From positions 1-41,832 of the forward strand of contig JAHIRD010000021.1 of the NCBI GenBank assembly GCA_018818835.1: a stretch of DNA of 41,832 nt, written 5' to 3'. A model generated the notes under the pieces. The model made no database searches. It was not told the origin of the DNA and was given only the letters and a program-made list of their open reading frames with translations. The translations under genes and the position numbers were made by a program. Shown piece after piece: positions 4,900-40,666 of the stretch (position 1 is its first letter; every line of letters begins with the position of its first letter). Source of the DNA: Pseudomonadota bacterium (lineage in GTDB: Bacteria; Desulfobacterota; Desulfobacteria; Desulfobacterales; Desulfolunaceae).

Positions 4900-4902
4900 C
4901 GG

Positions 4903-4951: not shown

Positions 4952-4985
4952 ACCCCGATGGTTGACATTTCGAGGAGATAAACAC

Positions 4986-6149: not shown

Positions 6150-6236
6150 TCCATACCGGTTATGTGGTTGTCAAACTGGCGTATGGTTCAAGATTGGTGT
6201 TAACCCTAACAATGATCGTATTGACAAGGAGTCATC

Positions 6237-9168: not shown

Positions 9169-9303
9169 TGATGATTCAGGGGGCATGTGTATGAAGACGA
9201 TGACGTGTATGAACTAATTCCCTCTTACTGTCTGAATATGATGATTTCATACAGGTGTCCCCGATTAATTTTAAATTATAACAGACGAACCGGATAAACG
9301 ACG

Positions 9304-10635: not shown

Positions 10636-10675
10636 AATTGCATTATCGCGGATGCTATGGAGTGTTTAAATCATT

Positions 10676-20114: not shown

Positions 20115-20125
20115 TGGTGGGCAGA

Positions 20126-20950: not shown

Positions 20951-20965
20951 AAGGAGTATTTTAAC

Positions 20966-22144: not shown

Positions 22145-22247
22145 AGGAGCGATAACACTAAGTATCACTCACAATTCCAGGAAGGCCACGATCGATGTGT
22201 CGGACACCACATAAACGCCGAAATGGCTAAATAGGAGATAATTAAAA

Positions 22248-23273
22248 ATGGGTAATGAATTTAAAAAAGACGATTTTTTTAAAATTGATCCTGAGCCCCA
22301 CTTGATGGGAGATATGGATAGTATCAGCCATTTCCCCGGCGTTAAAATGTGGTGGAAGGCGATCGACAGTATCAGCAGGCCTCTTTTCACGGGCTGCTTG
22401 CCGGAGATGCTTTCAGCTTATCTGGAAGGAATGGAAGAATGGGAAATCGTAAAAAACGGTGATCCGAATAACCTCATACGATCCATGGACAAATACGGCG
22501 TGGATATCGCGTGCCTGCTACCGGAATCCATGATGGACACCACCGGCTATACCAGCAGGTGGTGTTCAAACGGAGATATGGCCAAAATTGTGGAAACAAA
22601 TCCGGACCGGTTTATGTATCAGCCGAACATTTCTCCGATTAAACATAAAGGTGTCAAAAACACCATCTGGGAGCTCGAATACTGGGTGAAGGAAAAAGGG
22701 GCCAAAATATTCAAATTTTATGCGCCTGAAGATACCTACATTAATGATCCCGACCTCTGGCCGTTTTATAAAAAAGCGGAAGAGTTGGGCATCGTTCTGG
22801 ATATTCATACCGGTTTCAGTTGGGTGCCCCCCGGAAAAAGTAAATATGCCCTGCCCATTCTGATTGATGATGTGGCACGTGATTTTCCGGACCTGGTCAT
22901 CAATGCATTTCATATGGGGTATCCGTATTGCGACGATTTAAACATGGTTGCCATGGGGCATCCCAATGTGTACGTGTGCCTGAGCCTTCTCGTTCCCTGG
23001 GCCATCACGTCGCCCAGAAAATTTGCAAAAATTTTTGGCGAAGCCATGAGATGGGTCGGACCGGACAAGATCATATGGGGGTCGGATTATGCAGGATTCA
23101 GTATCCAGGTCAAAGGTGCGGTCCAGGGCTTAAGAGATTTTCAAATTCCGGAAGATATGCAGGAAGGGTATGGCTACCCACCGATCACCGATGAGGACCG
23201 TGCCAAAATTTTCGGCGGCAATCTGGGCCGGCTGTTAGGCATTGATACAACCAAACGTAGAATCAACCCCTAA
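22248..23273 (+). CDS. amidohydrolase_2 family, decarboxylase-like (unit B)
   Basis: A 341-residue paralogue closest to the unit A copy. Metal-site residues Glu16-x-His18 (DPEPHL), His in DIHTGFSW, His in AFHMGYPYC, and Asp in WGSDYAG are kept. A five-residue insertion relative to unit A lies near residue 55-60 (AYLEGMEEW). The 103-bp leader before it has a small GTGTC-G-GACAC palindrome around 22200 and GGAG as ribosome-binding site. Function inferred as for 6237: metal-dependent decarboxylation or C-C hydrolysis on a pathway intermediate. Confidence 0.83.
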   Translation: MGNEFKKDDFFKIDPEPHLMGDMDSISHFPGVKMWWKAIDSISRPLFTGCLPEMLSAYLEGMEEWEIVKNGDPNNLIRSMDKYGVDIACLLPESMMDTTGYTSRWCSNGDMAKIVETNPDRFMYQPNISPIKHKGVKNTIWELEYWVKEKGAKIFKFYAPEDTYINDPDLWPFYKKAEELGIVLDIHTGFSWVPPGKSKYALPILIDDVARDFPDLVINAFHMGYPYCDDLNMVAMGHPNVYVCLSLLVPWAITSPRKFAKIFGEAMRWVGPDKIIWGSDYAGFSIQVKGAVQGLRDFQIPEDMQEGYGYPPITDEDRAKIFGGNLGRLLGIDTTKRRINP

Positions 23274-23289
23274 CCTTTGACAGGAGAAT

Positions 23290-24699
23290 ATGATGAATTA
23301 TCCAGCATTGTTCGAACCGATTCAACTCGGCAACATTGAATTAAAAAACAGAATCGCCATGGCACCGATGAACGTGGGATATACGGGGCCAAACGGATAC
23401 CACAGCGATCAGAGTACCGCCTGGTATGCCATGAGAGCCCGTGGTGGTTTCGGGCTGATTATAACCGAATGCGTTGTGATGAATCCGCATCGTTGGGGGG
23501 GACAGCAAAGCTTGAATCCGTCCCTGATGATTGATGAACGGTATTACCGGTACCACAGTGAACTTACGGAAATGATTCATCACTTCTCCGACTGCAAAAT
23601 CTGCATCCAGCTCAGTCCGGGATGGGGACGGCAGGGGCATCCCCATGCTGAATCGAGAGATTGCCCTGCAGGTGCTCCTTCAGCTATTCCAATGGAAACG
23701 GATTTACGAAATTTAAATAAAGGATGGGTACGACAGATCACGAGACTCGCACGTGAAGCTGTTGGAGAGGAAGCTGTCGCATTGGTCCCTGATTTTGATA
23801 AAGTCAAGGAAATGAACGATGAAGAATATGCTGCGTTTAAAGTCGAGGCATTAGGCTTGCTTGCTATGATTGCCCCTGAAATGGGTCATGTCGTCGTTGG
23901 GGACACGCCTCGTGAGCTTACGAAGGAGGAAATCGTAGATCTTGAAGATCGATTTGCAACACAAACGTACGCTTCATATAAACTGGGATATGATGCTGTG
24001 GAAGTCCATGCCCCCCACGGGTATCTATTACATCAGTTTCTTTCATCACGGTCGAATCACAGACATGATGAATATGGAGGAAGTTTAGAGAACAGGGCAC
24101 GGTTTTTAACAAATATTATTGTCAAAACACGTGAAAAAATAGGACCTGACAAGGCATTTGGCGTAAGACTTTCAGGTGATGAACTTATGCCGGGTGGGAT
24201 TACCCATGACGAAATGAAACAGGTGGTTACCCTGTGCAAGGATGCCGGAGTTAATTTTATCAATGTGTCTCAAGGCTCCTATGAAAACCCCGGAGCTGCC
24301 TTTGCTCCGGACGGTGAGGATGAATTCACCCGATGGGCACCCGGATTCAAGGAAGCCTCTGGCGGCCTTCCTGTTATTACCCCGGGTTTCATCAATCCTG
24401 AAATTGCTGAAAATGCGATTACTTCGGGAAAGACTGATATTATTTCTCTTGGAAGACAATCAATTGCGGATCCTTTCTGGCCGGTAAAGGTTAAGGAGGG
24501 CAGAGAAAAAGACATCGTCAAATGTATCAGATGCCAGAGATGTTACATGGATTTGATGACGGCAAACTGGTGCCGGTGTTCGGTAAATCCCATCGTAGGC
24601 AAGGAAAAATACTATACGGAACTGTTTCTTGACACGCCTAAACTTAAGAAAAAAGTCGATCTGTTTTTAAAGAAGGCCAAAGATTTACCCCAGATTTAA
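23290..24699 (+). CDS. FMN/4Fe-4S oxidoreductase (OYE/2,4-dienoyl-CoA reductase N-terminal type), unit B
   Basis: A 469-residue relative of the unit C oxidoreductase. Seen: IELKNRIAMAPMN, GGFGLIITECVV, GYDAVEVHAPHGYLLHQF, RHDEYGGSLENR, then Cys412, Cys415, Cys418 and Cys430. The C-x2-C-x2-C-x11-C spacing is one residue shorter than the usual x3. The NAD(P)/FAD domain is absent, and an insertion (~138-205) precedes TPRELTKEEI. By eye its codons in 23700-24300 are more A/T-rich than those of the CoA-transferase genes that follow, and the gene has no counterpart in unit A, so it may be an insertion into this operon. Role: reduction of an activated C=C bond. Confidence 0.85.
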   Translation: MMNYPALFEPIQLGNIELKNRIAMAPMNVGYTGPNGYHSDQSTAWYAMRARGGFGLIITECVVMNPHRWGGQQSLNPSLMIDERYYRYHSELTEMIHHFSDCKICIQLSPGWGRQGHPHAESRDCPAGAPSAIPMETDLRNLNKGWVRQITRLAREAVGEEAVALVPDFDKVKEMNDEEYAAFKVEALGLLAMIAPEMGHVVVGDTPRELTKEEIVDLEDRFATQTYASYKLGYDAVEVHAPHGYLLHQFLSSRSNHRHDEYGGSLENRARFLTNIIVKTREKIGPDKAFGVRLSGDELMPGGITHDEMKQVVTLCKDAGVNFINVSQGSYENPGAAFAPDGEDEFTRWAPGFKEASGGLPVITPGFINPEIAENAITSGKTDIISLGRQSIADPFWPVKVKEGREKDIVKCIRCQRCYMDLMTANWCRCSVNPIVGKEKYYTELFLDTPKLKKKVDLFLKKAKDLPQI

Positions 24700-24717
24700 T
24701 GATTGCAGGAGACGGTT

Positions 24718-25731
24718 ATGAATATCGGCAATAAAGGTCGGGGTATCTTATTCACCAACCCTGACCCGGATCAGGCCCGCGCTTTTTTCAGAGATAAAAA
24801 GAGCGACGCCCGATCCATGAAAAACAAAGTCGTGGACTTGAAAAGCGCTATTTCCAATTACGTTCACGATGGAGATTATCTGGCCATCGGAGGGTTCGGT
24901 GCAAACCGGACCCCCCTGGCGGCCTGCCATGAAATTGTTCGGCAAAAGAAAAAAAAGCTGGGTTTTTTGGGCCACACCTCAACCCATGACATGCAGATTC
25001 TCAGTGCGGGTGAGGTCTATGACCGGATTGATGTATCGTACGGTGTGGGCCTGGAAGCACGGGGATTGTCCCGCTGCTCAAGGGCATATATGGAAAGCGG
25101 CACGGTCAGGGTGACCGAATGGACCAACTACGCGTTGACCGCACGGTTGAGGGCCGCATCCATGGGGCTCCCGTTCATGCCCGTCCGGGAAATGCTTGGA
25201 ACGGACACCTTTGCCCAAAGCGGGGCGGTCCAGGCCGCATGCCCGTTCACGGGTAAGCCGGTGGCCCTGGTGCCCGCCCTTTACCCCGACGTTGCCGTAA
25301 TCCATGTCCATGAGGCGGATTGCTTCGGGAACGCCCGGTTCCAGGGCATTGCCATCGCGGATATAGAACTGGCCCATGCCTCCAAACGTCTGATCATCAC
25401 CACGGAAAAGCTGGTCAATCATGATGAAATCAGCCGGGACCCGGCCCTGACCCAGATCCCCTTTTATCTGGTGGATGCGGTGTGTGAAGTCCCCTACGGT
25501 GCTTATCCCGGCGGGATGCCCTATGCGTATTTTTCCGATGAACACCATATCAGGCAATGGCTGGATGCGGAAAAAGACCCGAAGACGTTCAGGGACTTTC
25601 TTGACCGGGAAATATTCGGCTGCAAGGACCACAACGATTATCTGAATCTCCATGGCGGCCTTGAACGCATGAGCGCCTTGCGGGCCGAAGAATTTTTCCT
25701 GCATAAGGAGGATCATCATGACGGCGTATAA
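24718..25731 (+). CDS. glutaconate CoA-transferase-like alpha subunit, unit B
   Basis: A 337-residue paralogue of the 7397 gene. ATG 24718 is chosen over the upstream in-frame TTG at 24703 because GGAG lies about 8 bases before it and the protein then begins like its paralogue. GctA blocks are DGDYLAIGGFGANRTP, GHTSTHDMQIL, MGLPFMPVREMLGTD, VDAVCEVPYGAYPGG and FGCKDHNDYL. It overlaps the beta gene by 14 bp. From here to 28697 the DNA looks more G/C-rich than the matching unit A genes. Confidence 0.88.
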   Translation: MNIGNKGRGILFTNPDPDQARAFFRDKKSDARSMKNKVVDLKSAISNYVHDGDYLAIGGFGANRTPLAACHEIVRQKKKKLGFLGHTSTHDMQILSAGEVYDRIDVSYGVGLEARGLSRCSRAYMESGTVRVTEWTNYALTARLRAASMGLPFMPVREMLGTDTFAQSGAVQAACPFTGKPVALVPALYPDVAVIHVHEADCFGNARFQGIAIADIELAHASKRLIITTEKLVNHDEISRDPALTQIPFYLVDAVCEVPYGAYPGGMPYAYFSDEHHIRQWLDAEKDPKTFRDFLDREIFGCKDHNDYLNLHGGLERMSALRAEEFFLHKEDHHDGV

Positions 25732-26488
25732 CGACATGGAAATCATGATCGTGGCTGCGGCCAGGGAACTTGAGAACGGTGCCACGGTTGCGGTTGGAAC
25801 CGGTGCGCCCTGTGCGGCGGCCATGCTGGCCCAGAAAACCCACGCCCGGGACCTGATCATCATGTTCGAAGCCGGCGGCATCAGCCCGTGCCTGGTTGAC
25901 ATGCCCATTTCCGTGGGGGACTCCCGGACCTTTCACCGGGCTTCCAAAGCCGGAAGCATGGGGGACGTGATGGATGCCTGTGCCAGGGGAAGCGTGGACT
26001 ACACCTTTCTTGGCGGCGCCCAGATCGATATGTACGGCAATCTCAACTCCACCATGATCGGAACGAACCACCAGAAACCCACGGTGCGTTTTCCCGGCAG
26101 TGGAGGTGCCAATGATTTTGCCTCTTTGTGCTGGCGGACCATGGTCTTGACGGTTCAGGACAAACGGCGTTTTGTGGAAAAACTGGATTTCATGACCACA
26201 CCGGGCTGGCTCGACGGTGGAGATTCCAGGGAAAAAAGCGGGCTGCCTCCGGGAACCGGTCCCTACCGAATCATCACCAACATGGCCGTCATGGATTTTG
26301 AGCCCGTATCCAAACGCATGCGGGTGATATCGATTCATTCGGGTTTTTCCTTTGAAGACATTCAGGCCCATTGCGGATTTAAATTGATCAAAGCCGAGAC
26401 CCTGGCCCATACGCCCGACCCCACGGACCTGGAGTTGTCCGTTCTCCGGAAGGACGTGGACCCTAAGGGGTATCTGATCGGGAGATAA
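25718..26488 (+). CDS. glutaconate CoA-transferase-like beta subunit, unit B
   Basis: A 256-residue GctB-family protein, same length as the unit A copy, ATG start with AAGGAGG 7-13 bases upstream inside the alpha gene. The catalytic Glu51 (MFEAGGISP) is conserved, as are LGGAQIDMYGNLNST and RFPGSGGAND. It forms the active CoA-transferase with the alpha subunit. Confidence 0.9.
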   Translation: MTAYNDMEIMIVAAARELENGATVAVGTGAPCAAAMLAQKTHARDLIIMFEAGGISPCLVDMPISVGDSRTFHRASKAGSMGDVMDACARGSVDYTFLGGAQIDMYGNLNSTMIGTNHQKPTVRFPGSGGANDFASLCWRTMVLTVQDKRRFVEKLDFMTTPGWLDGGDSREKSGLPPGTGPYRIITNMAVMDFEPVSKRMRVISIHSGFSFEDIQAHCGFKLIKAETLAHTPDPTDLELSVLRKDVDPKGYLIGR

Positions 26489-26495
26489 GGATATT

Positions 26496-27839
26496 ATGAG
26501 TCTATCACAACAGTACATCCAAAAAAAAGTTTCGGCCGAAAAAGCGGCATCTATGATTAAATCCGGAGACTGGGTCGATTACGGTCATATGCAGTCTTCA
26601 CCGATTTTCATGGACAAAGCCCTGAGCATGCGCGTGGGCGAGGTCGAAGATGTCAATATCCGCTGTTCGGGATTTCCTAATTTGTCATCCATTGTCATGG
26701 CTGACCCGAACCAGACAAGCTTCCGTTACAACACGGCTTTTCTGACTCTTGCGGACAGGGCTCTGAACACGGAAGGCATCATCAGCCATATCCCGGGCCT
26801 TTACCATGAAATCCCCGGCTTCAGTTCCAGACATCACCATACGGATGTCTGCATCATCCGGACGACCACCATGGACAAGAACGGATTTTTCAATTACGGG
26901 GTCTGCAACGATTGCCAGAGTGAAATGATACCCAACGCCAAGATGCTCATCGTGGAAGTGAACGAAACCCTTCCCCGCTGCCTGGGGGGGCTTCACGAAT
27001 CGGTGCATATCTCGGATGTGGATTACATCGTGGAATCCGATCACGAACGCCTTGTGGCCTGGCCATCCATAGAACCGACGAATAACGACCGGCTCATCGC
27101 CCAGCGCATCATCCGGGAACTTCGCAACGGGGACTGCCTCCAGCTGGGAATCGGGGGGATGCCCAATGCCCTGGGCAAACTCATCGCAGAGACCGACCTG
27201 AAAAATCTGGGCGTCCACACGGAAATGATGGTGGATGCCTATCTGGACCTTTACAAGGCAGGAAAAATCTCGAATGCCAATAAAACCCTGGACAAGGGTA
27301 AAATGGTGTACACCTTTGCCATCGGTGAACAGAGTCTCTATGATTTTCTGGACAACAACCCCATCTGTGCCAGCTACCCGGTCAGCTACACCAATGACCC
27401 TTGCAGGATTGCCGCCAATGATCAGGCCGTTTCAATCAACGGCTGTATCGAAGTGGATCTTTTCGGACAGGTGTCATCGGAATCATCCGGAATCCGTCAG
27501 ATCTCCGGGACGGGGGGCCAGTTCGATTTTCATTTCGGGTCTTACCATTCAAAAGACGGAAAATCCTTTGTCTGCATGAACTCAACCCGTACGGACAAGG
27601 ACGGACAGGTTCATTCGAACATTCGCCCCGTTCTTGAATCGGGCACCATCGTCACCTTACCGAGAACCGTGACCCACAACGTGGTCACCGAATACGGCAT
27701 CGCCATGCTCAAAGGCAAATCCGCCTGGGAACGGGCCGAGGCACTGATCGATATTGCCCATCCGACATTCCGTGACGAACTGATCCTGCAGGCTGAAGCC
27801 ATGAAAATTTTTACCAATCGCAACAGCCAGAATAAATAA
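26496..27839 (+). CDS. 4-hydroxybutyrate/acetyl-CoA CoA-transferase family, unit B
   Basis: A 447-residue paralogue of the 9304 gene. QLGIGGMPNAL, GVHTEMMVD with catalytic Glu243, SINGCIEVDLFGQVSSES and RQISGTGGQFDFHFG are all kept. It sits only 7 bp after the beta subunit (135 bp in unit A), so unit B is the more compact operon. Substrate not known. The presence of this enzyme beside GctAB in both units suggests two distinct CoA-transfer steps. Confidence 0.88.
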   Translation: MSLSQQYIQKKVSAEKAASMIKSGDWVDYGHMQSSPIFMDKALSMRVGEVEDVNIRCSGFPNLSSIVMADPNQTSFRYNTAFLTLADRALNTEGIISHIPGLYHEIPGFSSRHHHTDVCIIRTTTMDKNGFFNYGVCNDCQSEMIPNAKMLIVEVNETLPRCLGGLHESVHISDVDYIVESDHERLVAWPSIEPTNNDRLIAQRIIRELRNGDCLQLGIGGMPNALGKLIAETDLKNLGVHTEMMVDAYLDLYKAGKISNANKTLDKGKMVYTFAIGEQSLYDFLDNNPICASYPVSYTNDPCRIAANDQAVSINGCIEVDLFGQVSSESSGIRQISGTGGQFDFHFGSYHSKDGKSFVCMNSTRTDKDGQVHSNIRPVLESGTIVTLPRTVTHNVVTEYGIAMLKGKSAWERAEALIDIAHPTFRDELILQAEAMKIFTNRNSQNK

Positions 27840-27857
27840 TGGATTATGGGGGGCACT

Positions 27858-28697
27858 ATGAATCATTCACAGCCGTTATCGGGTAAAACCGCTCTGGTCA
27901 CCGGAGCATCGAGGGGCCTTGGCCGTGCCATCGCCCTGGCTCTCGGTCAGGCCGGAGCAAATGTGGTGGTCACGGACCTTCTTGTGGAGGATGATCAACC
28001 GGATAAAGAAAAACTCTCTGAATACAGTATCCTTGCCGCTCATTTTTATGAAAACAGCATGGTCAGAACCCTGTCGACCAGCCGTGACATCGAAAATATG
28101 GGCGTCGGGAGCATGGCCCTGAAAATGGATGTGACCGACGAGGACAACATCCGCAATGTGGTCGCTCAGGTGGAAGATACCCTGGGCGGTGTGGATATTC
28201 TTGTGAACAACGCCGCCGTCATGGACGGCCTGGGGCTGATGGAAAACCAGTCTCTAAAAACTTGGGAGCGGGACCTTCGGGTCAATCTCACCGGAACGTT
28301 TCTCTGTACCCATGCGGTCTGGGCCGGAATGAAACGAAATAAATGGGGCCGGATCATCAATATGTCCTCGTTCACTGCCGAATCCGGTGCTTTTGCCCAA
28401 CCGGGTTACGCCGCCTCCAAGGCGGGGATGCTGGGTCTGACCCGCACCCTGGCCCTGGAGGGTGCAGCCCACGGGATGACGGTCAACGCCGTCATGCCCG
28501 GATTTATCGCCACCGAAGCCATCGACCTCTACTCACCTGACATGAAAGAGCGCATCTGCAAGCGGAATCCCATGAAGCGCATGGGGACACCCGATGAAGT
28601 GGCATCGCTTGTGTGTTTTCTTGCATCGAAAGAGGCGAGTTATCTAAACGGTGCGGCTATTCCGGTGACCGGGGGGATGGATCTGCTCGTGTTTTAG
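27858..28697 (+). CDS. short-chain dehydrogenase/reductase, unit B
   Basis: A 279-residue SDR, paralogue of 10676-11512. ATG 27858 is preferred to ATG 27846: a GGGGGG stretch at 27848-27853 serves as ribosome-binding site and the product then aligns with the unit A protein. TGASRGLG, NNAA, Ser and YAASK catalytic motifs are present, as is the extra segment after the second strand (EYSILAAHFYENS) shared only with the unit A copy. Last gene of unit B. Probably an NAD-dependent 3-hydroxyacyl-CoA dehydrogenase. Confidence 0.9.
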   Translation: MNHSQPLSGKTALVTGASRGLGRAIALALGQAGANVVVTDLLVEDDQPDKEKLSEYSILAAHFYENSMVRTLSTSRDIENMGVGSMALKMDVTDEDNIRNVVAQVEDTLGGVDILVNNAAVMDGLGLMENQSLKTWERDLRVNLTGTFLCTHAVWAGMKRNKWGRIINMSSFTAESGAFAQPGYAASKAGMLGLTRTLALEGAAHGMTVNAVMPGFIATEAIDLYSPDMKERICKRNPMKRMGTPDEVASLVCFLASKEASYLNGAAIPVTGGMDLLVF

Positions 28698-30913: not shown

Positions 30914-31037
30914 TGATTAGATGCCTTTAATTCATTTTCACAATAACTGATAAACATCTATATAGCACAGTGTTACCCCCCACCGAATGGTGAGTGATAA
31001 AATTGGCTCTGTGCATTGTATCGATCAGGAGAAGGTC

Positions 31038-34000
31038 ATGAAGAAATCAGTGGCATACGTAATGGTGTTTGTTTTGCTTGGTATTTTTCTAGTCTCATGC
31101 GGAATGAATAAAGATGATGACAAGACGTTACAAAATAACGGTTCACTTTCTACGGATGAATATGCCAACTTCAAGCTCCTTGATATTTTCGACGGAAGGG
31201 GCTCCGTGGAGGTAATATGGGACAGTATTGACGGGTCGGAGTGCAATTCACGTTTGGTATGTACAGTGGATCAGGTCGTGGATGAATTTGTTTTGTCTAC
31301 CAGTATATGGTCGGAAATTTTTAAAAATGACAAACAGTCTGTGGCCAAATTGTTGTCAGTAGATGCAGTCCATCTCCTTGGGATTATGAAGGATGAGGCG
31401 CCATATTTTAAAGAAAGCCCCGAGGATATTGATGCTTTCTATAGCCAATCCCCAGCGTTTTTGGCCGATCATTTTTATGCCTTTCTCGACAGACTTTGGG
31501 AAGATGACAACACTGCCGGTGAGCAGGCTCTGGCTGATATAGCCTATAAGCTGGTATCCCGAACCCTGGCCAAAAAAACACCTCTGGAAATTCTGGCTGA
31601 TATTCAGGACGATATGGATGATATTGAAGATGACATGTTTGACAGGGATTTCCATAACAGTTCATCCTTCCTGGGTAAACTCCTGATCCAGGCGGACTAT
31701 CCCCTCTGGGTGGATGATAACGGTGCCCCAGTGGATCGGGATTCCATCGACCCTTCGCTGGATACAAATACCGGACAGGGCAATGCCGTTGATGGTATAA
31801 ACAAGCTGGTCAACTGGGTGAACAGGATCGTTGCCGACGATGAGGCAAGAGAAGACCTGTATGGTATGATCAGAGAGTTTGTACGAGTGTTCGATCCTGC
31901 ACCCGATTCAACCCACAGCCGTACCATCAAAGCCCTGCTGCAAAACCTCGAGGATAACTTCACGGTGGGAGGCTCGGTTTACGAGTCCAACCCCATGTAT
32001 AAAAGCGGTCCGGATGATCCCATCTATACGGATGCGTCTTTGAAGCAGACACTCAGAGAATCCTGTCCCTATATTGCACAAATGCTGGCGCGCACGGACC
32101 GGGAAATTTCCCAGAGTTTCACGGATGAAAATGAAACCCCGCAATACATCATCCGTGAGATGATTCGCGGCATGAAAAGCGTGGGGTATGACCCGGATAA
32201 AGTGAGTATAGAAGAAGGCATCCGAATGGTTATGCAATATGATCTGTATGGGCGTGACAGGACACTGCCAAACTCCGGAGCTTACTCTGCATCAATGTTC
32301 GAAAGCATCGCTTTTCTAACAGGCGTAACGACGCATATCGGTTTCAAAGATGGAGGAGAAACCGGAGAGACAACGATAATTTCAAACCCCACTACCCAGC
32401 ATGGCCATGGAGAATTTACAGGGAGTCTCTCTATTAATGATGCACTGATCAACATGTCCTCTAATAAAACCCTGGGTATAGGGCTTTACGATGTAACGTT
32501 CAAAGAAAATGACAAAGATTATCTGTCACGAAGTGTGGTTCCGTTTACCACGGAAACCATGAATTCATATCAATACGATTTTGACCAGAATTGTGGTTTT
32601 CTGAAATCCCTTGCAGGAAACTGCGCCGGAGATGCCGGCAGCCCCGAAGGCGGGAACAGAGTCGGCATTGCTCCCGCTAAAAACGAGTATGCACCCTATG
32701 ACCCCACGGGTTTGGGGATGCCCCAATTGGCGGGCTGGACGACCAACTGGGTGCTCAGAAGCTGTTTCGGCGGCCAGGGGCCCTATTACTATGCCGATCC
32801 CGATGCCCCCATCGTGACGGTCAACGGTAAAAATTATTTCAAATATCTGCGTCCGGACGGTCGTGTCTATGCGTTGGTCAATAAGGACAATGAAACCTGG
32901 GAATACCTCTATCCAACGGACGGAACGCGTGACAAAGAAGATCTGGAAACCGACATACTGGAGGATTATAACGGCCTCAGGCAGCGTTTCAACCGTTATA
33001 AATCTACCTGGTTCACAGATTATTACATGTATCACAGGAACAATATGATCCTTTCGTTGGATAACAGCAATGGAAACCTTGAAATGGTGAACCTGGATGA
33101 CGGGGATTCAGCGGGAAGGCTGACGTATCATGAATTGGTACCCGAAGATGAATCCTCCCATATGCGGGCTTGTTCAAGCCCTGAAGAGGCTTTTTTCAGG
33201 AATTATGAGTGGGTGTATACTGAAAAGAAAATGGCGATAATTGTTCCACAGAGCGTGACGGTCCCGGTTCTGGGATATGGTCTTGTTTTCATGGTACTTG
33301 AAGCTCACGGATGGGCGGGGCTCCAAAACCTCAGGATTTTCGAGGATAACCATGTATGGGCCAAAAAAGGATCGGATGGCGTATCGGATATCCCCGGGGA
33401 TTATCGTGTCGAAATCGTGTCAAATGCGACAACTCTTGTTTCCGTGATGGTGAATGACAATTCGGTTTACAATTCAATGCTTGGAACAGGGAATGCCTGC
33501 CCCAGTATTGTGGGAAGCAGCATGCCGGCCCTTGTCCGGCTTGCATTTCCCAAAAGCCCTTTGACCGACCGTGGAAACAGCGTGGCCGATGTCCTTGTCG
33601 GATCACGTGATTTTGAGGTGGGGGACGACATCTGGAAGAACCGCAATCCCTTTGCCCAGCTTTTCGTATCCATGTCGTATGCCATCGACAAACATCGTGT
33701 GTCATCTGAAAATTACGATCCAAAATCCCTTAAAGCCGCTTTGCTCGCACATTTAAAGAACCTTGCACCTCTTATCAAACCCCAGATGTATTATGAGAAA
33801 CACGGAGAAGGTTGCACACCGCCTTACGACACCTGGAAAGTACGCGTGGCTGGGGGAACCTCGAGTGAACCCTGGTACGGATCTGATTACCTGCATCCGG
33901 CGGTGGGATTTGATGGAACTCCCCGGTGGGACGGGACAGAAGCTGAACGTTATTTTTACCAGCCGGCGCCCGCGAAAACACTGCTCAATGTCATGGTTGA

Positions 34001-35015
34001 CAGTGATAGTACAGCACCTGTCAGCGAAGGGAAACGTATGGATGGAATGCTGCCTATTCTCACGGAAACAAAGACCATCACACAACTTCTTAAGGTTCTG
34101 ATGAGTGATGCCAACGACTGCGATGAATTGTACATCGCTCTTGAGCAGATATTCGGGACCATGAAGTTTACCGAAGGGCAACTGACCGCCATTAACCGCC
34201 AGGCGGAATCAGGAAACCGATTGCCTTTTCCGGACTGGATGTTTGCAATAGGACTGGGGGCGGATGAATTCGGTTTTTATACGGAATTCACCAATGTCAG
34301 GCCGGAGGATATCGTTGTCGATGTGGGATTGGACAGGATGATTGGCCATGATTCCTATGACGATGGTGAGTTCCATGAAGGTTATGGCCTCGCCTATTAC
34401 GTGGATGATCAGGAAAAGAAAGGCTGGACCGACTTCGATAAAGACATGGATACCCTTGAAGATTTCCTGTACCCGGACAGCCATTACAGTGTGGTTGAGC
34501 CTGTTATTGATTTAATTGACGCCATTTTCAGAAGAGATTCCCTGTATTCAAATGATGATATCGCTGGTTTTCTCTATACTCTGGGTAAGTTGTTCACCCG
34601 GTATGATTCAAACCAGAACCGGTGGGTGATTCAGGGAGAGACAGAACTCAACGATTTGTACACGATCATCAAACAACGAATCCCTGAAATCCATGATGAG
34701 ATCAAGGATGAAACCGGGGACAATTACCACGCCATCTACACCATGAATCAGGATGTACTGTCCCGAATGAACGCCTGCGGAACATCGAACGGTATAGTGC
34801 CCTATGTTCTTGATGCCATGAGCACGGATAAAGGCGCGGAAAAGATCATAAGTGATCTTCATGCCTTCCTGACGGATGGGATCATATCGAATCCCGAGCC
34901 TTTGTGGTCCACTCTTGCAGATTTATTATCGGATTTATCCCGTGCCGTGGATCAATCCAAGGACGGTGAGTTGCTGGATTCCGTTTACGAGGATTACGGT
35001 TTTCAACGTAATTAA
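31038..35015 (+). CDS. very large lipoprotein of unknown function
   Basis: A 1325-residue predicted lipoprotein. ATG 31038 is preferred over an upstream in-frame start because AGGAG is 6-10 bases before it and a signal peptide then begins at residue 2: KKS, a hydrophobic stretch, and the lipobox LVSC with Cys21. Gly22 follows with no Asp at +2, so it is probably sent to the outer membrane. The rest is soluble, rich in Asp, Tyr and Trp, with no transmembrane segment and no family I recognise. Several stretches (GYGLAYYVDDQ, TDFDKDMDTLEDFLYPDSHYS) look like a structured extracellular or periplasmic protein. It is followed after 103 bp by the corrinoid-activator gene. A link to that operon is unproven. 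Confidence 0.8.
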   Translation: MKKSVAYVMVFVLLGIFLVSCGMNKDDDKTLQNNGSLSTDEYANFKLLDIFDGRGSVEVIWDSIDGSECNSRLVCTVDQVVDEFVLSTSIWSEIFKNDKQSVAKLLSVDAVHLLGIMKDEAPYFKESPEDIDAFYSQSPAFLADHFYAFLDRLWEDDNTAGEQALADIAYKLVSRTLAKKTPLEILADIQDDMDDIEDDMFDRDFHNSSSFLGKLLIQADYPLWVDDNGAPVDRDSIDPSLDTNTGQGNAVDGINKLVNWVNRIVADDEAREDLYGMIREFVRVFDPAPDSTHSRTIKALLQNLEDNFTVGGSVYESNPMYKSGPDDPIYTDASLKQTLRESCPYIAQMLARTDREISQSFTDENETPQYIIREMIRGMKSVGYDPDKVSIEEGIRMVMQYDLYGRDRTLPNSGAYSASMFESIAFLTGVTTHIGFKDGGETGETTIISNPTTQHGHGEFTGSLSINDALINMSSNKTLGIGLYDVTFKENDKDYLSRSVVPFTTETMNSYQYDFDQNCGFLKSLAGNCAGDAGSPEGGNRVGIAPAKNEYAPYDPTGLGMPQLAGWTTNWVLRSCFGGQGPYYYADPDAPIVTVNGKNYFKYLRPDGRVYALVNKDNETWEYLYPTDGTRDKEDLETDILEDYNGLRQRFNRYKSTWFTDYYMYHRNNMILSLDNSNGNLEMVNLDDGDSAGRLTYHELVPEDESSHMRACSSPEEAFFRNYEWVYTEKKMAIIVPQSVTVPVLGYGLVFMVLEAHGWAGLQNLRIFEDNHVWAKKGSDGVSDIPGDYRVEIVSNATTLVSVMVNDNSVYNSMLGTGNACPSIVGSSMPALVRLAFPKSPLTDRGNSVADVLVGSRDFEVGDDIWKNRNPFAQLFVSMSYAIDKHRVSSENYDPKSLKAALLAHLKNLAPLIKPQMYYEKHGEGCTPPYDTWKVRVAGGTSSEPWYGSDYLHPAVGFDGTPRWDGTEAERYFYQPAPAKTLLNVMVDSDSTAPVSEGKRMDGMLPILTETKTITQLLKVLMSDANDCDELYIALEQIFGTMKFTEGQLTAINRQAESGNRLPFPDWMFAIGLGADEFGFYTEFTNVRPEDIVVDVGLDRMIGHDSYDDGEFHEGYGLAYYVDDQEKKGWTDFDKDMDTLEDFLYPDSHYSVVEPVIDLIDAIFRRDSLYSNDDIAGFLYTLGKLFTRYDSNQNRWVIQGETELNDLYTIIKQRIPEIHDEIKDETGDNYHAIYTMNQDVLSRMNACGTSNGIVPYVLDAMSTDKGAEKIISDLHAFLTDGIISNPEPLWSTLADLLSDLSRAVDQSKDGELLDSVYEDYGFQRN

Positions 35016-35118
35016 TCGTATTAAAACCAGAAAGCCAGCGACAGGTTAATCGTTTTTTCGGAAACCGTAACACCGTTGGCAAAAAATTTCGAAGCACAAC
35101 ACGCTCGCAGAAGGCTTT

Positions 35119-36660
35119 ATGGCATCTCTAACACTAATACCAGGCGGTCAAACAAAGGACTTCCCGAGCTCAACGCGACTCCTTGATGCATTGCTGGACA
35201 TGGGGGTGGTGGTCAGTTCTCCATGCGGTGGCAAGGGGAGTTGCGGGAAGTGCGGGATCAGGTGTGATGGCGGATTATCTGCCAAAACAGATCTGGAAAA
35301 AAACGTTACCGGAAACAACGCACGGAGCCGGTTGGCTTGTCAGGCTGAACTTACAGATGATGTGACTGTCTTCATCGACGAAAAACGTATTCCTCTTCAA
35401 AAATCTTACCCTGCGGTGAATCCTGAGGATCGTTACGCTATTGCCGCAGATATTGGAACCACGTCGGTCAGCGTCGATCTTGTCTGTCTTACCAATGGAA
35501 AGCAAATTAGCCTTGATACGTTCCTAAACCCCCAGCGCAGATTCGGGCACGATGTCATCAGCCGGATTGCTGCTGCGAATAACCCGGAAAATAAAAAAAT
35601 CATGACCCGGCAAATTCGACAGGCCGTACTTGGGACGATTACCGAAGCGATTTCAGCCATGAAGGTTCCCCTCAGCCACATTGAAAAAATCGTATTTTCC
35701 GGAAATACCACCATGCTTTACCTGCTTTTCGGCATGGATGTGTCCGGGCTGGGGAGATTCCCCTTTGAAGCCTTTTGCCTTGATTTTGATGGCATTGAAC
35801 CCTCTGCTATTGATGCCGGCATGTTCCCCAATGCCCGAATATCAGCCGTACCCGCTGTCAGCGCATTTCTGGGAGGTGATTTTCTCGGTGGCCTGACCCT
35901 CTGTCGTGAAAAAGAATATCGTGAAAACACTTTTTTCATTGATCTGGGCACCAATGGAGAAATGTTTCTTATCAATGGATCCGGTCCCATATATGCAACG
36001 TCCTGCGCCATGGGCCCGGCCCTTGAGGGAATTAATATCTCCCGGGGTATGACGGCAGACGAGGGCGCCATAACACATGTCAGGATCGATTTCGGCGAGC
36101 TTGTCCATACCAAGATCGGAGATGCGCCACCTGTCGGTCTGTCCGGCACGGCCTTGATTGATCTTGTCGCTCTTTTTCTGTCTGAGGGATGCATAAGAAA
36201 AAACGGGAGATTTGCCGACGATGGGCTTTTAAACCTTCCCGGGCCAGCGACATTCGAAAAAGGAGAAAAATCAAAGCAGATCCGTCTCTGGAATGACATT
36301 GCCATTTCCCAGAAAGATGTTCGCAATCTTCAACTGGCAAAAGCCGCAAGCCTTGCTGCTGCGCGGCTTATGCTCCAGGAAGCCGGATGCGCGGCAGATG
36401 ACGTCACCCGTGTTCTGATTGCCGGGGATCTTGGCTCGCATCTGGATAAGGATAATTTCAGATCTCTGGGGTTTCTTCCGGATTTTCCCAACGCCACCTT
36501 TCATTTTCTGGGGAACACCAGTCTTCAGGCTGCGGCAAGCATTTGTGTTGATGAGCTGTTTTACCAAAAAGCGGTTCAGTCAAGGGGCCGGGTCAGGGAA
36601 GTGGTCCTTTCCGGCAATCCGGAATTCAGCAAGGAATTTATCAAAAGTATAGAATTTTAG
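35119..36660 (+). CDS. RACo-type ATP-dependent corrinoid activator (2Fe-2S + DUF4445/ASKHA)
   Basis: A 513-residue reductive activator of corrinoid proteins. It uses ATP and an electron to return accidentally oxidised Co(II) to Co(I). Residues ~1-90 are a plant-type ferredoxin with Cys36, Cys42, Cys45 and Cys74 (C-x5-C-x2-C-x28-C). The C-terminal ASKHA part has AADIGTTSVSVDL, FSGNTTMLYL and FFIDLGTNGEMFLI phosphate-binding blocks, ending in a DLGSHLDKDNFRSLGFLP segment typical of DUF4445. It is shorter than the classical RACo (~630). It heads an operon that also encodes the corrinoid protein and its methyltransferases, which fits the role well. Confidence 0.88.
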   Translation: MASLTLIPGGQTKDFPSSTRLLDALLDMGVVVSSPCGGKGSCGKCGIRCDGGLSAKTDLEKNVTGNNARSRLACQAELTDDVTVFIDEKRIPLQKSYPAVNPEDRYAIAADIGTTSVSVDLVCLTNGKQISLDTFLNPQRRFGHDVISRIAAANNPENKKIMTRQIRQAVLGTITEAISAMKVPLSHIEKIVFSGNTTMLYLLFGMDVSGLGRFPFEAFCLDFDGIEPSAIDAGMFPNARISAVPAVSAFLGGDFLGGLTLCREKEYRENTFFIDLGTNGEMFLINGSGPIYATSCAMGPALEGINISRGMTADEGAITHVRIDFGELVHTKIGDAPPVGLSGTALIDLVALFLSEGCIRKNGRFADDGLLNLPGPATFEKGEKSKQIRLWNDIAISQKDVRNLQLAKAASLAAARLMLQEAGCAADDVTRVLIAGDLGSHLDKDNFRSLGFLPDFPNATFHFLGNTSLQAAASICVDELFYQKAVQSRGRVREVVLSGNPEFSKEFIKSIEF

Positions 36661-36712
36661 AGGTATATGAAAAAGTGTATGAAAACCGTAATATGAATAG
36701 GGAGAAAGAGAG

Positions 36713-37795
36713 ATGAAAGCCTTACCATACTATATCATTTTCCAAATGCCTGTCGGCATTATTATGGGATACGTCCATGGAGGTGTCCTCAATTTCATGA
36801 CGCTGGCCATGTTATTCGTGATCATCCCGTTATTGGATTTCTTCATCGGCATCACCAAGATCAACCCAGACCCGGAAGAAGAGCGGCGCCTGAAGGACAG
36901 CCTCCCGCATAAAATCGTCACTTGGCTGGCTGTTCCCGTCCAGGTCGGCATGGTGATCTGGGGTGCCTTTACGGTGGCGCACGGCAGAATGAGCACTTTG
37001 GAGTTCGTTGGTTTCACCCTCTCCATGGGCTGTATGTCCGGGATCATGGGCATCAACCTGTCCCATGAGTTGATGCACCGTGTGAACAACCGGTTCGAGG
37101 TACTTCTTTCCAGGATCATGCTTTGGACTACCGGTTACATGCATTGGGCCATTGAGCATGTGGCAGGTCACCACAGGAACGTGGCCACGCCGGAAGACCC
37201 CGCCACGGCGCGCTCAGGCGAGTCCTTCTATTCCTTCTGGCCCAGGACCGTCATCGGGGGGTTCACGAGTTCCTGGAACATCGAAAAAAAACGGCTCGGG
37301 AGAAAGGGAATCAGGATTTGGAGTAGCCACAACCGCATCATTAGGTACACGACCGCGGAACTGGCCCTGCTGCTCGTATTCTGGGTCCTGCTGGGGCCCC
37401 TGGCCGCAGTCTACTTCATCATCCAGTGCCTCGTTGCCATCTCGCTCCTGGAAGTGGTGAACTACATTGAGCACTACGGTCTTCTCCGAAGGGAGTTGAG
37501 GGAAGGCGTCTACGAGCCTGTAAACGTCACGCACTCATGGAATTCCGGCAACATTCTCACGAACGTATTTTTGTTCAACCTCCAAAGGCACTCTGACCAC
37601 CATGCAGAGCCGAACCGACGCTATCCGGTGCTCCGATACTTCGAGGAGAGCCCACAGTTACCCACCGGTTATGCGGGCATGATGATCCTGGCTCTGATCC
37701 CCCCGCTGTGGCGCAAGGTAATGGACCAGCCTTCCGGCAAGGATAAAGGAATTAAATCCAACATAATAGCAGATGCTCACATGGACCAACAATAG
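36713..37795 (+). CDS. alkB: AlkB-type non-heme di-iron alkane/ether monooxygenase
   Basis: A 360-residue integral membrane enzyme that inserts one O atom from O2 into a terminal C-H bond. About five or six hydrophobic segments are seen (~5-50, 67-88, 98-118, 213-248). All AlkB histidine boxes are present: SHELMHR (His118, His122), EHVAGHHRNVATPEDPA (His149, His153, His154), NYIEHYG (His254), HSWNS (His274) and LQRHSDHHAEP (His293, His296, His297). The TPEDPATAR and FWPRTVIG matches mark it as true AlkB, not a generic desaturase. It lies 52 bp after the corrinoid activator and 14 bp before the methyltransferase. Rubredoxin and rubredoxin reductase genes are not in the window. By eye the gene is more G/C-rich than its neighbours, hinting at transfer. 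An O2-dependent enzyme in this context is odd. Confidence 0.9.
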   Translation: MKALPYYIIFQMPVGIIMGYVHGGVLNFMTLAMLFVIIPLLDFFIGITKINPDPEEERRLKDSLPHKIVTWLAVPVQVGMVIWGAFTVAHGRMSTLEFVGFTLSMGCMSGIMGINLSHELMHRVNNRFEVLLSRIMLWTTGYMHWAIEHVAGHHRNVATPEDPATARSGESFYSFWPRTVIGGFTSSWNIEKKRLGRKGIRIWSSHNRIIRYTTAELALLLVFWVLLGPLAAVYFIIQCLVAISLLEVVNYIEHYGLLRRELREGVYEPVNVTHSWNSGNILTNVFLFNLQRHSDHHAEPNRRYPVLRYFEESPQLPTGYAGMMILALIPPLWRKVMDQPSGKDKGIKSNIIADAHMDQQ

Positions 37796-37809
37796 AAGAG
37801 AGGAACTAA

Positions 37810-38616
37810 ATGATTGTTATTGGAGAAAAAATAAATGGTACGCGCAAAGCGGTAGGCAATGCCATTCGGGCACGTGACAAACAATTGATTCAGGATCTTG
37901 CTAAACATCAGGTGGATGCCGGTTCTGACTTCCTGGATGTGAATGCCGGTACTCCGCGTGACCGCGAACCGGATGACATGGTCTGGTTGGTAGAGACCAT
38001 ACAGGAGGTCTGTGAGACGCCCCTTTGTCTGGATACTGCCAACCCAAAGGCGTTGCTGGCCGGACTTAAACAGGTTCGCTTTCCGACCATGGTCAATTCC
38101 GTCACAGGGGAAAAGCCCAGGATTGACGGTATTCTTCCACTGGCGTGTGAGTTTAAGACAAACGTGATTCTCTTGCCGATAGATGACGGCGGCATCCCCA
38201 AGACGAGCAACAGCAGGATGGTCATCATTGAAGAGCTGGTCAACCTTGCAAAAGGGGGAGGGCTACTCGAAGAACAGCTTTATATTGATCCGCTGGCCAT
38301 CGCGATCAGTACAGGGACCGAAGGGGCGCTGGTCACATTTGATACCATCAGGAAAATACGTGAAATGTATCCCAAGGCGCATGTAACCATCGGTTTGTCA
38401 AATATTTCATTCGGTATGCCGCTAAGATCCATTATTAATCAAAGTTTTTTATCCATGCTGGTTTTATCAGGTTTGGACAGCGCCATTATGAACCCGAATG
38501 ACCGGCTGTTAAAGGGAACCATGTTGGCTTCGGAGATGCTGGTCAACAAGGACAGGCACTGTCAAACGTTCAGTCGGGCTTACCGATCGGGAGCTCTCAA
38601 TATTCACGAAAAATAA
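37810..38616 (+). CDS. methyltetrahydrofolate:corrinoid methyltransferase
   Basis: A 268-residue pterin-binding TIM barrel (AcsE/MtvA type) that passes the methyl group between a methylated corrinoid protein and tetrahydrofolate. Seen: VIGEKINGTRKAV at the start, then VDAGSDFLDVNAGTPRD, LCLDTANPKAL, MVNSVTGEKPRID and THVTIGLSNISFGMP-like ends, all typical of the family (the Asp and Asn that bind the pterin are in LDVNAG and VNS). It is in series with the corrinoid protein 20 bp downstream. In O-demethylation it is the second methyltransferase (MT-II); in the reverse direction it could methylate a product. Confidence 0.9.
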   Translation: MIVIGEKINGTRKAVGNAIRARDKQLIQDLAKHQVDAGSDFLDVNAGTPRDREPDDMVWLVETIQEVCETPLCLDTANPKALLAGLKQVRFPTMVNSVTGEKPRIDGILPLACEFKTNVILLPIDDGGIPKTSNSRMVIIEELVNLAKGGGLLEEQLYIDPLAIAISTGTEGALVTFDTIRKIREMYPKAHVTIGLSNISFGMPLRSIINQSFLSMLVLSGLDSAIMNPNDRLLKGTMLASEMLVNKDRHCQTFSRAYRSGALNIHEK

Positions 38617-38636
38617 TACATTAGGAGAATTACACC

Positions 38637-39281
38637 ATGGATATTCAGCTGTTGAAAGAAGCTGTTGTCGAGATGCAGGAAGAAAAAGCGTTATCACTAA
38701 CCAAGCAATATATCGAAGAGGGTGCGGATCCGGTATCACTTTTTCAAGTATACCAGGACGCCTTGGTAGAAATCGGCAAGCGGTATGAACAGGAAATCTA
38801 CTTTATTCCTGAACTGATGATGGCCGGCGAGATTATGAACGCTGCTTCGGAATTGATCAAACCCCTTCTCGCAGAAGGACCGGAGGAAGCGAAAAACAAA
38901 AAAGGAAAAGTTCTGATAGCCACGGTCCAAGGGGATATTCATGATATCGGAAAGAATATTGTGACCATGATGATGGATTTGAATGGTTTTGAGGTGAAAG
39001 ATATCGGTGTGGATGTGTCTAAAGACAGAATTATTGCCGAAGCAGAGGCTTTTGGTGCCGATATTATTGGCCTTAGCGGTCTTCTGACCCTTGCCTTTGA
39101 TCCCATGAAAGAGGTGGTGGAGGAACTCAAGGTTCAAGGCCTCAGGGATAAATATAAAGTCCTCATCGGCGGTGGTCAGATGGACGAGAATATCTGCTCC
39201 TACACAGGAGCTGACGCATTTACGACCGATGCGATTGCAGGCATCAATATGTGCAAGGCATGGATGGAGCGGGTCAGTTAA
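38637..39281 (+). CDS. B12-binding corrinoid protein (MtaC/MtvC type)
   Basis: A 214-residue methyl carrier. Residues ~1-85 are the helical cap domain (EEKALSLTKQYIEEGADP, FIPELMMAGEIM). Residues ~90-214 are the Rossmann-like B12 domain with GDIHDIGKN, where His102 is the lower cobalt ligand in the D-x-H-x2-G motif. IIGLSGLLT supplies the Ser, and LIGGGQ the C-terminal glycine loop. AGGAG lies 7-11 bases before the start. It is the shared substrate of the neighbouring methyltransferases and of the RACo-like activator. Confidence 0.93.
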   Translation: MDIQLLKEAVVEMQEEKALSLTKQYIEEGADPVSLFQVYQDALVEIGKRYEQEIYFIPELMMAGEIMNAASELIKPLLAEGPEEAKNKKGKVLIATVQGDIHDIGKNIVTMMMDLNGFEVKDIGVDVSKDRIIAEAEAFGADIIGLSGLLTLAFDPMKEVVEELKVQGLRDKYKVLIGGGQMDENICSYTGADAFTTDAIAGINMCKAWMERVS

Positions 39282-39364
39282 ATCATCGGTACCCTGTCGC
39301 ATTTAATTTTTGCAGGAGTATGTGAAGACACTTATTTGAGAGTATTACCCCAAGGAGGATTGCC

Positions 39365-40666
39365 ATGATAGATCAACAAAATACTGAATCGTCTGCCAAC
39401 AACCCGGTGTTCGCAGAATATGAGGCACGAAAAAAACGACTCGAAGACGCCATTCAATTAAAAAAACCCGACAGGGTTCCCATTGCTCCGTTGATTGCTA
39501 TTTTTTACCCCACACGGATCAAGGGCATATCCAATAAAGACAATATGTTTAATCAGGCGGAGACGTTTAAAGCGTGGATCGAAGCCGCCGTTCAGCATAA
39601 CTGGGATACGGCGCTTCCACCGATGGGATTCCAGCCCGTCAAACTCTGGGAGCTGCTTCAAATCACACAGATGAAGTGGCCCGGTGGCCAATTGGAGGAT
39701 AATACTCCTTTTCAGTGGGTTGAAGGTGAGTATGCCGCCCGGGAGGAATATGATGAAATGCTCTCCAACCCAAACAGTTTTGCCGTTAAAAAATTCTGGC
39801 CCCGCATTGCCAAGGCCCTTACTCCGATCAGTGATATGATACAGATGGAACCGCCTCCTCCGATGCTTTATTTCTCCAGCGCTTATTCTCTCCCCACATT
39901 TCTGGGTGAAATGACATCCCTACCCGAGATCAGGCAAGTACTCAAGACATTGCTGGCTGTTGCAGACGAGTATGCTGCATTTAAGGAGGGCTTGGCAAGC
40001 TATGTAACGGATGCGAAGAATCAGGGCTTCCCCCTTGTCTTCGGTCCGCAGACAATTACGGCGATCGACTGGGTGGCTGATGTTTTTCGGGGTTTGCGCG
40101 GAAGCATGCTCGATATGTACAGAGCGCCCGATAAATTAAAAGCCCTTGTGGACGAGTTTATACCCTACACAATAGCTGCGCCGATGTTAATGGATACCCC
40201 GTTTGAATGCAAACGAGTGTTTATCCCCATGCACTGGGGCGCTGCCGGGTTTATGTCCGACAAGCAGTTCGCTGAATTTTATTGGCCTTCCTTTAAAGCC
40301 CTTATTATTGGGCTGGTGGATGCCGGCTATACTCCCGTGCCTCTTTTTGAAGGCGATTACACACCCCGTCTAAAGTATCTCGCTGAATTACCCGCCGGAA
40401 AGGTGGCTGGACATTTCGATCATATTGACCGGAAAAAAGCGAAAGAAATGATAGGCGATACCATGTGTTTCTGGGGGAATGTCCCTTCAACTCTTTTGTG
40501 CACCGGCACCCCTCAGCAGGTTGAAGACGATGTGAAGGAATTGATTGATATCTTTGGTGACAACGGAGGGCTGATTATAGACTGCAATATGGGGATACCT
40601 GATGAGGCAAAACCGGAAAATGTCCAGGCCATGACAGACGCTGTGATGAAATATGGAATCTATTAG
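39365..40666 (+). CDS. URO-D-family methyltransferase (MtaA/MtvB-like)
   Basis: A 433-residue protein of the uroporphyrinogen-decarboxylase superfamily. Seen: RKKRLEDAIQLKKPDRVPIAPL at the start (a URO-D methyltransferase opening), FGPQTITAIDWVADVFRG, and a C-terminal part with AGHFDHIDRKKAKEMIGD, CFWGNVPSTLL and DCNMGIPDEA. In such operons this protein is the substrate-side methyltransferase (MT-I) that moves a methyl group from a methoxylated or other methyl donor to the corrinoid protein. The classical His-x-Cys zinc motif of MtaA/MtbA is not obvious (HFD instead), so donor and metal use are open. AAGGAGG precedes the ATG; the 83-bp gap before it is plain. Confidence 0.86.
   Translation: MIDQQNTESSANNPVFAEYEARKKRLEDAIQLKKPDRVPIAPLIAIFYPTRIKGISNKDNMFNQAETFKAWIEAAVQHNWDTALPPMGFQPVKLWELLQITQMKWPGGQLEDNTPFQWVEGEYAAREEYDEMLSNPNSFAVKKFWPRIAKALTPISDMIQMEPPPPMLYFSSAYSLPTFLGEMTSLPEIRQVLKTLLAVADEYAAFKEGLASYVTDAKNQGFPLVFGPQTITAIDWVADVFRGLRGSMLDMYRAPDKLKALVDEFIPYTIAAPMLMDTPFECKRVFIPMHWGAAGFMSDKQFAEFYWPSFKALIIGLVDAGYTPVPLFEGDYTPRLKYLAELPAGKVAGHFDHIDRKKAKEMIGDTMCFWGNVPSTLLCTGTPQQVEDDVKELIDIFGDNGGLIIDCNMGIPDEAKPENVQAMTDAVMKYGIY

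Follow-up and report, generated by a model that had tools for sequence, protein, structure and literature searches.

Alkane 1-monooxygenases of the AlkB family are membrane diiron enzymes in which O2 and electrons from rubredoxin are used to hydroxylate an alkyl chain, and alkane activation by sulfate reducers is generally regarded as anaerobic. The solved AlkBs matched by the protein described here are 8f6t, the AlkB-AlkG complex of Fontimonas thermophila, and 8sbb. They are about 40% identical to it over 337-343 alignment columns and have in common with it the fold, the His boxes and the NYxEHYG motif. Unlike the 8f6t AlkB-AlkG, the present AlkB has no rubredoxin domain and no adjoining rubredoxin was found by motif scan. 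It differs furthermore from 8f6t and 8sbb in falling into a separate Desulfobacterota-type group and in having a dsrA-bearing host.

The closest described counterparts of the genes around it are the four-component corrinoid O-demethylase systems of Acetobacterium dehalogenans (PMC6739815). Co(I) corrinoids are described there as highly sensitive to oxidation and the activase class as re-reducing Co(II) with ATP. As in those systems, the four types of component (MT I, corrinoid protein, MT II and activase) adjoin in the DNA analysed here, and all are encoded together in this stretch of 41,832 nucleotides (the window), which is one entire contig. The differences are that the operon of the window holds an AlkB gene inside, that its MT I is of the URO-D type and that its host is a dsrA-bearing bacterium, not an acetogen.

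Oxygenases acting on alkanes are already in print for the phylum of the host. Flavin-binding, P450 and other alkane oxygenases are reported in Desulfobacterota MAGs, the term AlkB being absent from the available part of that text (PMC11857318). In two further sources, alkB is listed together with assA in group RBG-13-61-14, placed under Deltaproteobacteria (PMC13170169), and alkB in delta-proteobacteria is mentioned with citation of Nie 2014 and Wang & Shao 2013 (PMC9526415). No paper devoted to AlkB in this phylum came up in our literature searches; since alkB of delta-proteobacteria has been mentioned in print, AlkB in Desulfobacterota is not claimed here as unreported.

The corrinoid operon around alkB

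A first reading of the window, made from the letters alone (the sequence-only reading), had placed an AlkB gene 52 bp after a RACo-type corrinoid activator and 14 bp before a methyl-THF methyltransferase, and both gaps were confirmed by the ORF coordinates. The run lies entirely on the + strand. It begins with a RACo-type corrinoid activase of 513 aa (35119-36660) containing 2Fe-2S and ASKHA domains (PF14574, E 4e-58; PF17651, E 2.2e-39; PF00111, E 4.2e-06). AlkB (360 aa, 36713-37795) is followed by a methyl-THF:corrinoid methyltransferase of the MT II or MeTr type (268 aa, 37810-38616; PF00809, E 1.5e-18; 310 bits against NF005719/PRK07535 for a cut-off of 259), by a corrinoid (B12-binding) protein of 214 aa (38637-39281; PF02310, E 4.4e-23; PF02607, E 1.2e-15) and by an MT I-like methyltransferase of the URO-D type (433 aa, 39365-40666; PF01208, E 2.4e-17). 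The last protein, a URO-D member whose matches to MtaA and CmuA are weak, is the putative MT I that would demethylate a methoxylated compound or another methyl donor. Directly upstream of the activase, a 1342-aa protein (30987-35015), lipoprotein-like by eye, has no Pfam match at E 0.001.

Purine-rich stretches resembling ribosome-binding sites were seen by eye before the starts of the operon genes, and a consensus scan of the + strand from 34800 to 39990, whose totals were near chance, gave no terminator-like or promoter-like site. Given the placement of alkB in the operon and the intact reading frames of AlkB and of the genes downstream, AlkB is probably carried on the operon transcript. The tight gaps could also reflect selection for co-expression, and in this respect they were counted against the insertion of alkB proposed below.

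Identity and active site of AlkB

The ORF 36713-37795 encodes a complete AlkB-type protein. It matches FA_desaturase in the Pfam scan (PF00487, E 1.1e-37) and, in the PDB, 8f6t (E 7.5e-84, residues 20-340) and 8sbb (E 1.7e-75). Its AlphaFold2 model (pLDDT 92.3) was compared with solved structures by Foldseek and aligned to 8f6t with a TMq of 0.88 (1.9 Å, 40% identity, E 2.2e-22) and to 8sbb with a TMq of 0.86; after both AlkB entries, the next matches have an E of only about 0.6. The residues H118, H122, H149, H153, H154, H254, H293, H296 and H297, and also H274, are invariant in 31/31 aligned AlkBs. All nine His of the HELxH, EHxxGHH, EHYG and QRHSDHH boxes, which we take to be the metal ligands of AlkB, are intact. 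The presence of an AlkB with full His boxes, as first proposed, is thus borne out by the PDB matches, the fold and the 31-row alignment, and by sequence, His boxes and predicted fold the protein is an alkane 1-monooxygenase, with the enzymatic activity predicted accordingly from these features. Ordinary AlkB hydroxylation would be the simplest mechanism, by analogy with the family.

At position 34 the window AlkB has a Leu that aligns with a Trp of 8sbb and with Val in most relatives. Bulky residues at this Trp position presumably limit chain length in studied AlkBs, so Leu34 is a weak hint of longer substrates. The C-terminal tail (about residues 340-360; 37730-37792, + strand) is modelled with low confidence, pLDDT being below 50 at residues 342-360, and at this place the base composition returns to the local one. 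These two features make the tail a possible edge of an inserted stretch. We also considered the tail as the relic of a displaced DUF1638 gene and rejected this candidate, the last residues being unlike DUF1638 C-termini by eye. The window gene is the only AlkB match in the host genome, and a search of viral contigs with a 36-base stretch of alkB returned 0 exact matches.

Tree and distribution of AlkB

A careful AlkB tree was built from 48 rows, 31 of which, including the window gene, were grouped as Desulfobacterota-type, most of them because of their titles or their relationship to the host. These 31 rows form one side of a branch (95/81). Three rows (L002, L007 and L040) are titled Deltaproteobacteria only, and such rows are labelled Myxococcota in the tree taxonomy; L004 is the Syntrophaceae genome UBA6087, with taxonomy Thermodesulfobacteriota, i.e. 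Desulfobacterota. Within a subgroup of six rows (96/89), the window AlkB is the sister of L082, L003 and L040 (98/77, short of a support star), and its nearest relative is 66% identical. Two divergent matches from the phylum (L213 and L214, 38-39% identical over the match) were counted as outgroup and share a long branch. A quick tree of 102 rows made earlier, in which several long branches including L018 and L007 carried flags, agreed on these sister rows but supported them less well.

AlkB matches were found in 23 of the 291 genomes of the order, and 22 of them cover at least 314 of the 360 residues. One genome (G229) has a piece of 137 residues only and in another (G132) the matches come in pieces, some with stops. 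In the family, AlkB occurs in one of eight genomes, the host itself, and in none of the seven others. A draw from the phylum gave AlkB in 11/395 genomes, five of them shared with the list for the order. Long contigs (1.04 Mb, 505 kb, 407 kb and 382 kb) carry several of the copies, an argument against contamination as a general cause. All 21 AlkB-bearing genomes of the order that were examined have a dsrA match, at E 1e-170 or better in 20 and at 2.6e-109 in G199. As 269 of 282 genomes of the order have such a match, dsrA describes the hosts and is not an association with AlkB. COX1 is no positive correlate either, with a match in 6/21 AlkB-bearing genomes versus 121/261 others (Fisher p 0.17). 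With AlkB in 23 genomes of one order and dsrA in every examined carrier, the use of O2 as a reactant by some of these bacteria becomes testable.

Two deviating sets of sequences were observed. Six rows from family f59 of the order (L096-L100 and L102) form an AlkB subclade in which the NYxEHYG motif reads NY[IVG]VHYG and the first box begins with LSAAHE; all six have Val in place of the Glu that never varies in the alignment of 31 rows. In L101 and L104-L107, all from G132, AlkB matches occur at two places, some with an in-frame TGA, and these are perhaps decaying copies.

The AlkB-corrinoid arrangement in other genomes

The neighbourhoods of other AlkB genes were searched by tblastn (E 1e-5) with the activase, methyltransferase, corrinoid and URO-D proteins. 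No relative of an operon protein was found by AlkB in 80 loci (L002-L081) with flanks of up to 8 kb, several of them cut by contig ends, nor beside AlkB in L082-L107 with flanks of up to 1.5 kb. Within the order, 21 of the other 22 AlkB genomes (L140-L159 and L172) were covered in stretches of 5-19 kb and gave the same negative result, the surroundings in G229 being represented by a 1.9-kb locus only; so did four of six further AlkB genomes from the phylum draw (L220-L223; G308 and G380 were left out). Among the AlkB neighbourhoods read, AlkB therefore stands between an activase and a methyltransferase in the window alone, and the recurrence of this gene order in other genomes, expected of an AlkB-corrinoid functional unit, was not seen. 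The sequence-only reading had named as unfavourable to itself an arrangement found only here and without co-transcription; of this pair, restriction to the window is what the loci read gave.

Other AlkB genes have close neighbours too. By a mechanical ORF call, a same-strand ORF lies within 100 bp of AlkB on at least one side in 11 of 30 other loci, and on both sides in L157 only. Such neighbours include an Fe-S protein at 21 bp (L146) and a VTT/flavoprotein fusion at 61 bp (L155), with a look-alike in L157. In L223, AlkB and a pyridine-nucleotide-disulphide oxidoreductase (flavoprotein reductase, 9352-10593), a possible rubredoxin-reductase partner, share a strand and are 66 bp apart. In L154 (9198-10055) and L159 (7639-8490), the gene after AlkB, likewise on its strand, encodes a predicted metal-dependent hydrolase (PF10118). 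Among 16 neighbour genes scanned with Pfam, the only B12 connection at other AlkB loci was in L143, where a radical-SAM protein with a B12-binding domain (7433-8740) adjoins AlkB on the opposite strand; it is not an operon-type protein. A motif scan of the window and of the surroundings of 28 other AlkB genes found no adjoining rubredoxin.

Corrinoid modules occur, conversely, away from AlkB. In L162, L173, L174, L175 and L169, genes for MeTr, corrinoid protein and URO-D form a group that has no AlkB. The last is a paralogous module of the same genome (G000:C309), which keeps the order MeTr-corrinoid-URO-D with a MeTr 65% and a corrinoid protein 64% identical to those of the window. It differs from the window operon in having a DUF1638 gene directly before MeTr instead of AlkB, and its activase is downstream and 29% identical to that of the window. 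Orthologues of the window activase (58-62% identity) were detected in 4 of 282 genomes searched; a smaller search (96 genomes, E 1e-100) had returned the host only, the genomes with orthologues being outside that draw. Three of the four are beside corrinoid and URO-D-like genes (tested with Pfam in L217 only) and the fourth is at a contig edge. No AlkB was found on the contigs of these orthologues (4-8 kb, four genomes), and in G243 the activase orthologue and AlkB are on separate contigs. The seven other family members had no close relatives of the operon genes at the cut-offs used, the MeTr of G005 being 41% identical.

These data bear on a reading in which AlkB, in micro-oxic conditions, and the URO-D/corrinoid system, in anoxic ones, would be two routes for the methyl or alkyl group of one substrate. 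The common strand, the narrow gaps, the intact His boxes and the lack of a terminator-like or promoter-like site in the scan described above (totals near chance) are all consistent with it. Against these stand the absence of the arrangement from every other AlkB locus read, the related corrinoid modules without AlkB and a base composition which suggests that AlkB arrived later than its neighbours, and we consider this reading very unlikely. The earlier suggestions of a second, micro-aerobic way to open ethers or methyl groups, and of a new role for AlkB in an anaerobe through a corrinoid link, are likewise left without comparative support by an arrangement found only here among the loci read, and functional coupling of AlkB with the corrinoid system was dropped as the lead reading because the pairing was not found at the other loci; the B12-binding neighbour of AlkB in L143 is the one result that points the opposite way. 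As no other AlkB neighbourhood read holds operon relatives and modules elsewhere are without AlkB, the pairing looks, from these sequence comparisons, like an accident of transfer and not like a conserved functional unit.

Base composition and origin of alkB

The proposal that alkB is G/C-richer than its neighbours proved right. Its GC is 0.540 and its GC3 0.723, as compared with a GC3 of 0.498 for the activase and of 0.546, 0.502 and 0.525 for the next three genes downstream of AlkB; both its GC3 and its codon-usage z of 7.4 are the highest of the 30 window genes examined. Raised GC3 (0.64-0.70) is also present in four other window genes (24703-28697). Among 119 host ORFs of at least 200 aa, chosen mechanically from 203 kb and some of them not genes, none reaches the GC3 of AlkB (mean 0.472, maximum 0.654). 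Within the gene, GC3 is 0.67-0.90 over codons 31-330 and 0.53 in both the first 30 codons and codons 331-360. In the nearest relatives (L082, L040, L003 and L004), whose loci have 53-59% GC, the GC3 of the AlkB gene is 0.68-0.74. The GC of AlkB is within 0.04 of that of its locus in 28 of the 29 relatives listed; the exception, L087 (0.542 versus 0.464, +0.078), exceeds its surroundings by more than the window gene does (0.540 versus 0.473). Both L087 and the four window genes of raised GC3 count against the insertion of alkB.

Horizontal acquisition is supported by this outlying composition, by nearest relatives with the same high GC3, by the sporadic occurrence of AlkB and by its absence from the seven other members of the family. 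AlkB might alternatively be ancient and have been kept in the host lineage, its codon usage being odd for other reasons, such as membrane location or expression. Its place inside the Desulfobacterota-type group and the clear GC excess of L087 over its locus fit such vertical descent; the 0/7 family genomes, the 0/119 host ORFs and the agreement of AlkB with its locus in 28 of the 29 relatives speak against it, and we regard it as improbable. A wrong joining of the AlkB segment by assembly or binning would also give the sharp change in composition, and the genome is a draft of 334 contigs. This artefact appears extremely unlikely in view of both neighbouring reading frames, which are intact and in the same orientation, of the purine-rich stretch before the AlkB start, which lies within AT-rich sequence, and of the status of this AlkB as the sole match of the genome.

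The recent horizontal insertion put forward in the sequence-only reading is thus upheld as to transfer by composition, relatives of the same GC3, patchiness and the family genomes, and less so as to date and site. Because the nearest relative is only 66% identical, the donor would be outside the sampled set and 'recent' has composition as its one source. No orthologous activase-methyltransferase junction without AlkB, i.e. no empty site, was found in the genomes searched, so that insertion at this exact site is what we infer and not what we saw. Neither a repeat pair flanking AlkB within 36400-38100 nor a transposase among the 35 window proteins scanned with Pfam was found.

The explanation that we favour, and hold to be likely, is that a dsrA-bearing host gained a single alkB from a higher-GC relative, placed in a pre-existing corrinoid operon, and that the product works as an ordinary AlkB. 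One alkB gene would have been transferred horizontally from this relative into a four-part corrinoid operon already present, where it would have come to separate the activase gene from the methyltransferase gene, and would probably be carried from then on by the operon transcript. When O2 is briefly present, AlkB would hydroxylate alkanes or alkyl chains with electrons from rubredoxin, and the products would enter beta-oxidation. Under anoxia the corrinoid module would work separately, passing methyl groups to THF, and the activase would repair oxidised cobalt.

The host and oxygen

The host genome is a draft of 6.75 Mb. It has a dsrA match (E 9.9e-171) that covers oxidative and reductive types alike, a match to COX1 of the heme-copper oxidases (E 2.3e-141), both subunits of cytochrome bd (CydAB, I and II), a flavodiiron-type protein, rubrerythrin and three rubredoxins above the family cut-off. 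According to PMC11451228, many sulfate reducers have Roo and CydAB, both being widespread in them, and five MAGs of Desulfobacterota have further oxidases. From its gene content the host would be an O2-exposed and, judging by dsrA, presumably sulfate-reducing bacterium.

The remark that no rubredoxin is in view holds for the window, where none was found by motif scan, and fails for the genome, whose three rubredoxins settle the matter at that level and make a possible electron donor for AlkB available. The contradiction first seen between an O2-dependent AlkB and O2-labile neighbours persists in so far as Co(I) corrinoids are O2-sensitive. It is softened by the O2-reducing enzymes and rubredoxins of the host and by an activase of the class that re-reduces oxidised corrinoid. 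The activities of AlkB and of the corrinoid system, moreover, need not coincide, and work at different moments would be a way around the conflict. We also weighed the idea that AlkB is co-expressed with the O2-labile corrinoid system chiefly to protect it as a sink for O2. Its likely co-transcription with a repair activase and the several O2-removing enzymes of the host are in line with this protective role; on the other side, cytochrome bd, a flavodiiron-type protein and a heme-copper oxidase are there already in the host, AlkB requires an organic substrate and the AlkB-corrinoid pairing does not recur, which together render such a role highly unlikely.

An anaerobic route of alkane activation through alkylsuccinate synthase was considered for the host and rejected: the larger of two PFL-like genes is closest to enzymes of the PFL2/glycerol-dehydratase type, and benzyl- and alkylsuccinate synthases rank lower among its matches.

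Returning to the favoured transfer of a single alkB, the operon context matters less, being apparently an accident of that transfer. The AlkB lineage of dsrA-bearing bacteria looks little noticed, recurs among sulfate reducers and their kin, and looks more interesting than the operon. A wider proposition, which we put forward tentatively and with considerable doubt, is that dissimilatory sulfate reducers and their kin own an AlkB lineage that is horizontally passed and is used, next to a wholly anaerobic metabolism, for O2-dependent hydroxylation of alkanes or alkyl lipids at oxic-anoxic borders, and that in this host alkB has fallen under the control that governs transcription of an O2-labile methyltransferase, so that one transcript would serve both states. 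Its bolder version, in which the chemistry of AlkB would be linked directly to that of the corrinoid pathway, strikes us as highly improbable.

Other features of the window

A FadL/TodX-type outer-membrane transporter (11719-13017; PF03349) is a possible importer of hydrocarbons or fatty acids. Two near-parallel clusters (2460-11512 and 18499-28697) contain genes for thiolase, OB-fold protein, enoyl-CoA hydratase, acyl-CoA dehydrogenase, amidohydrolase, CoA-transferases, acetyl-CoA hydrolase/transferase and SDR, and represent either a local duplication or two related catabolic clusters. Three regulators (1130-2092, 13590-14453 and 17255-18214), all on the - strand, each unite two domains in a single protein, a MerR N-terminal one and one of the TetR_N type.
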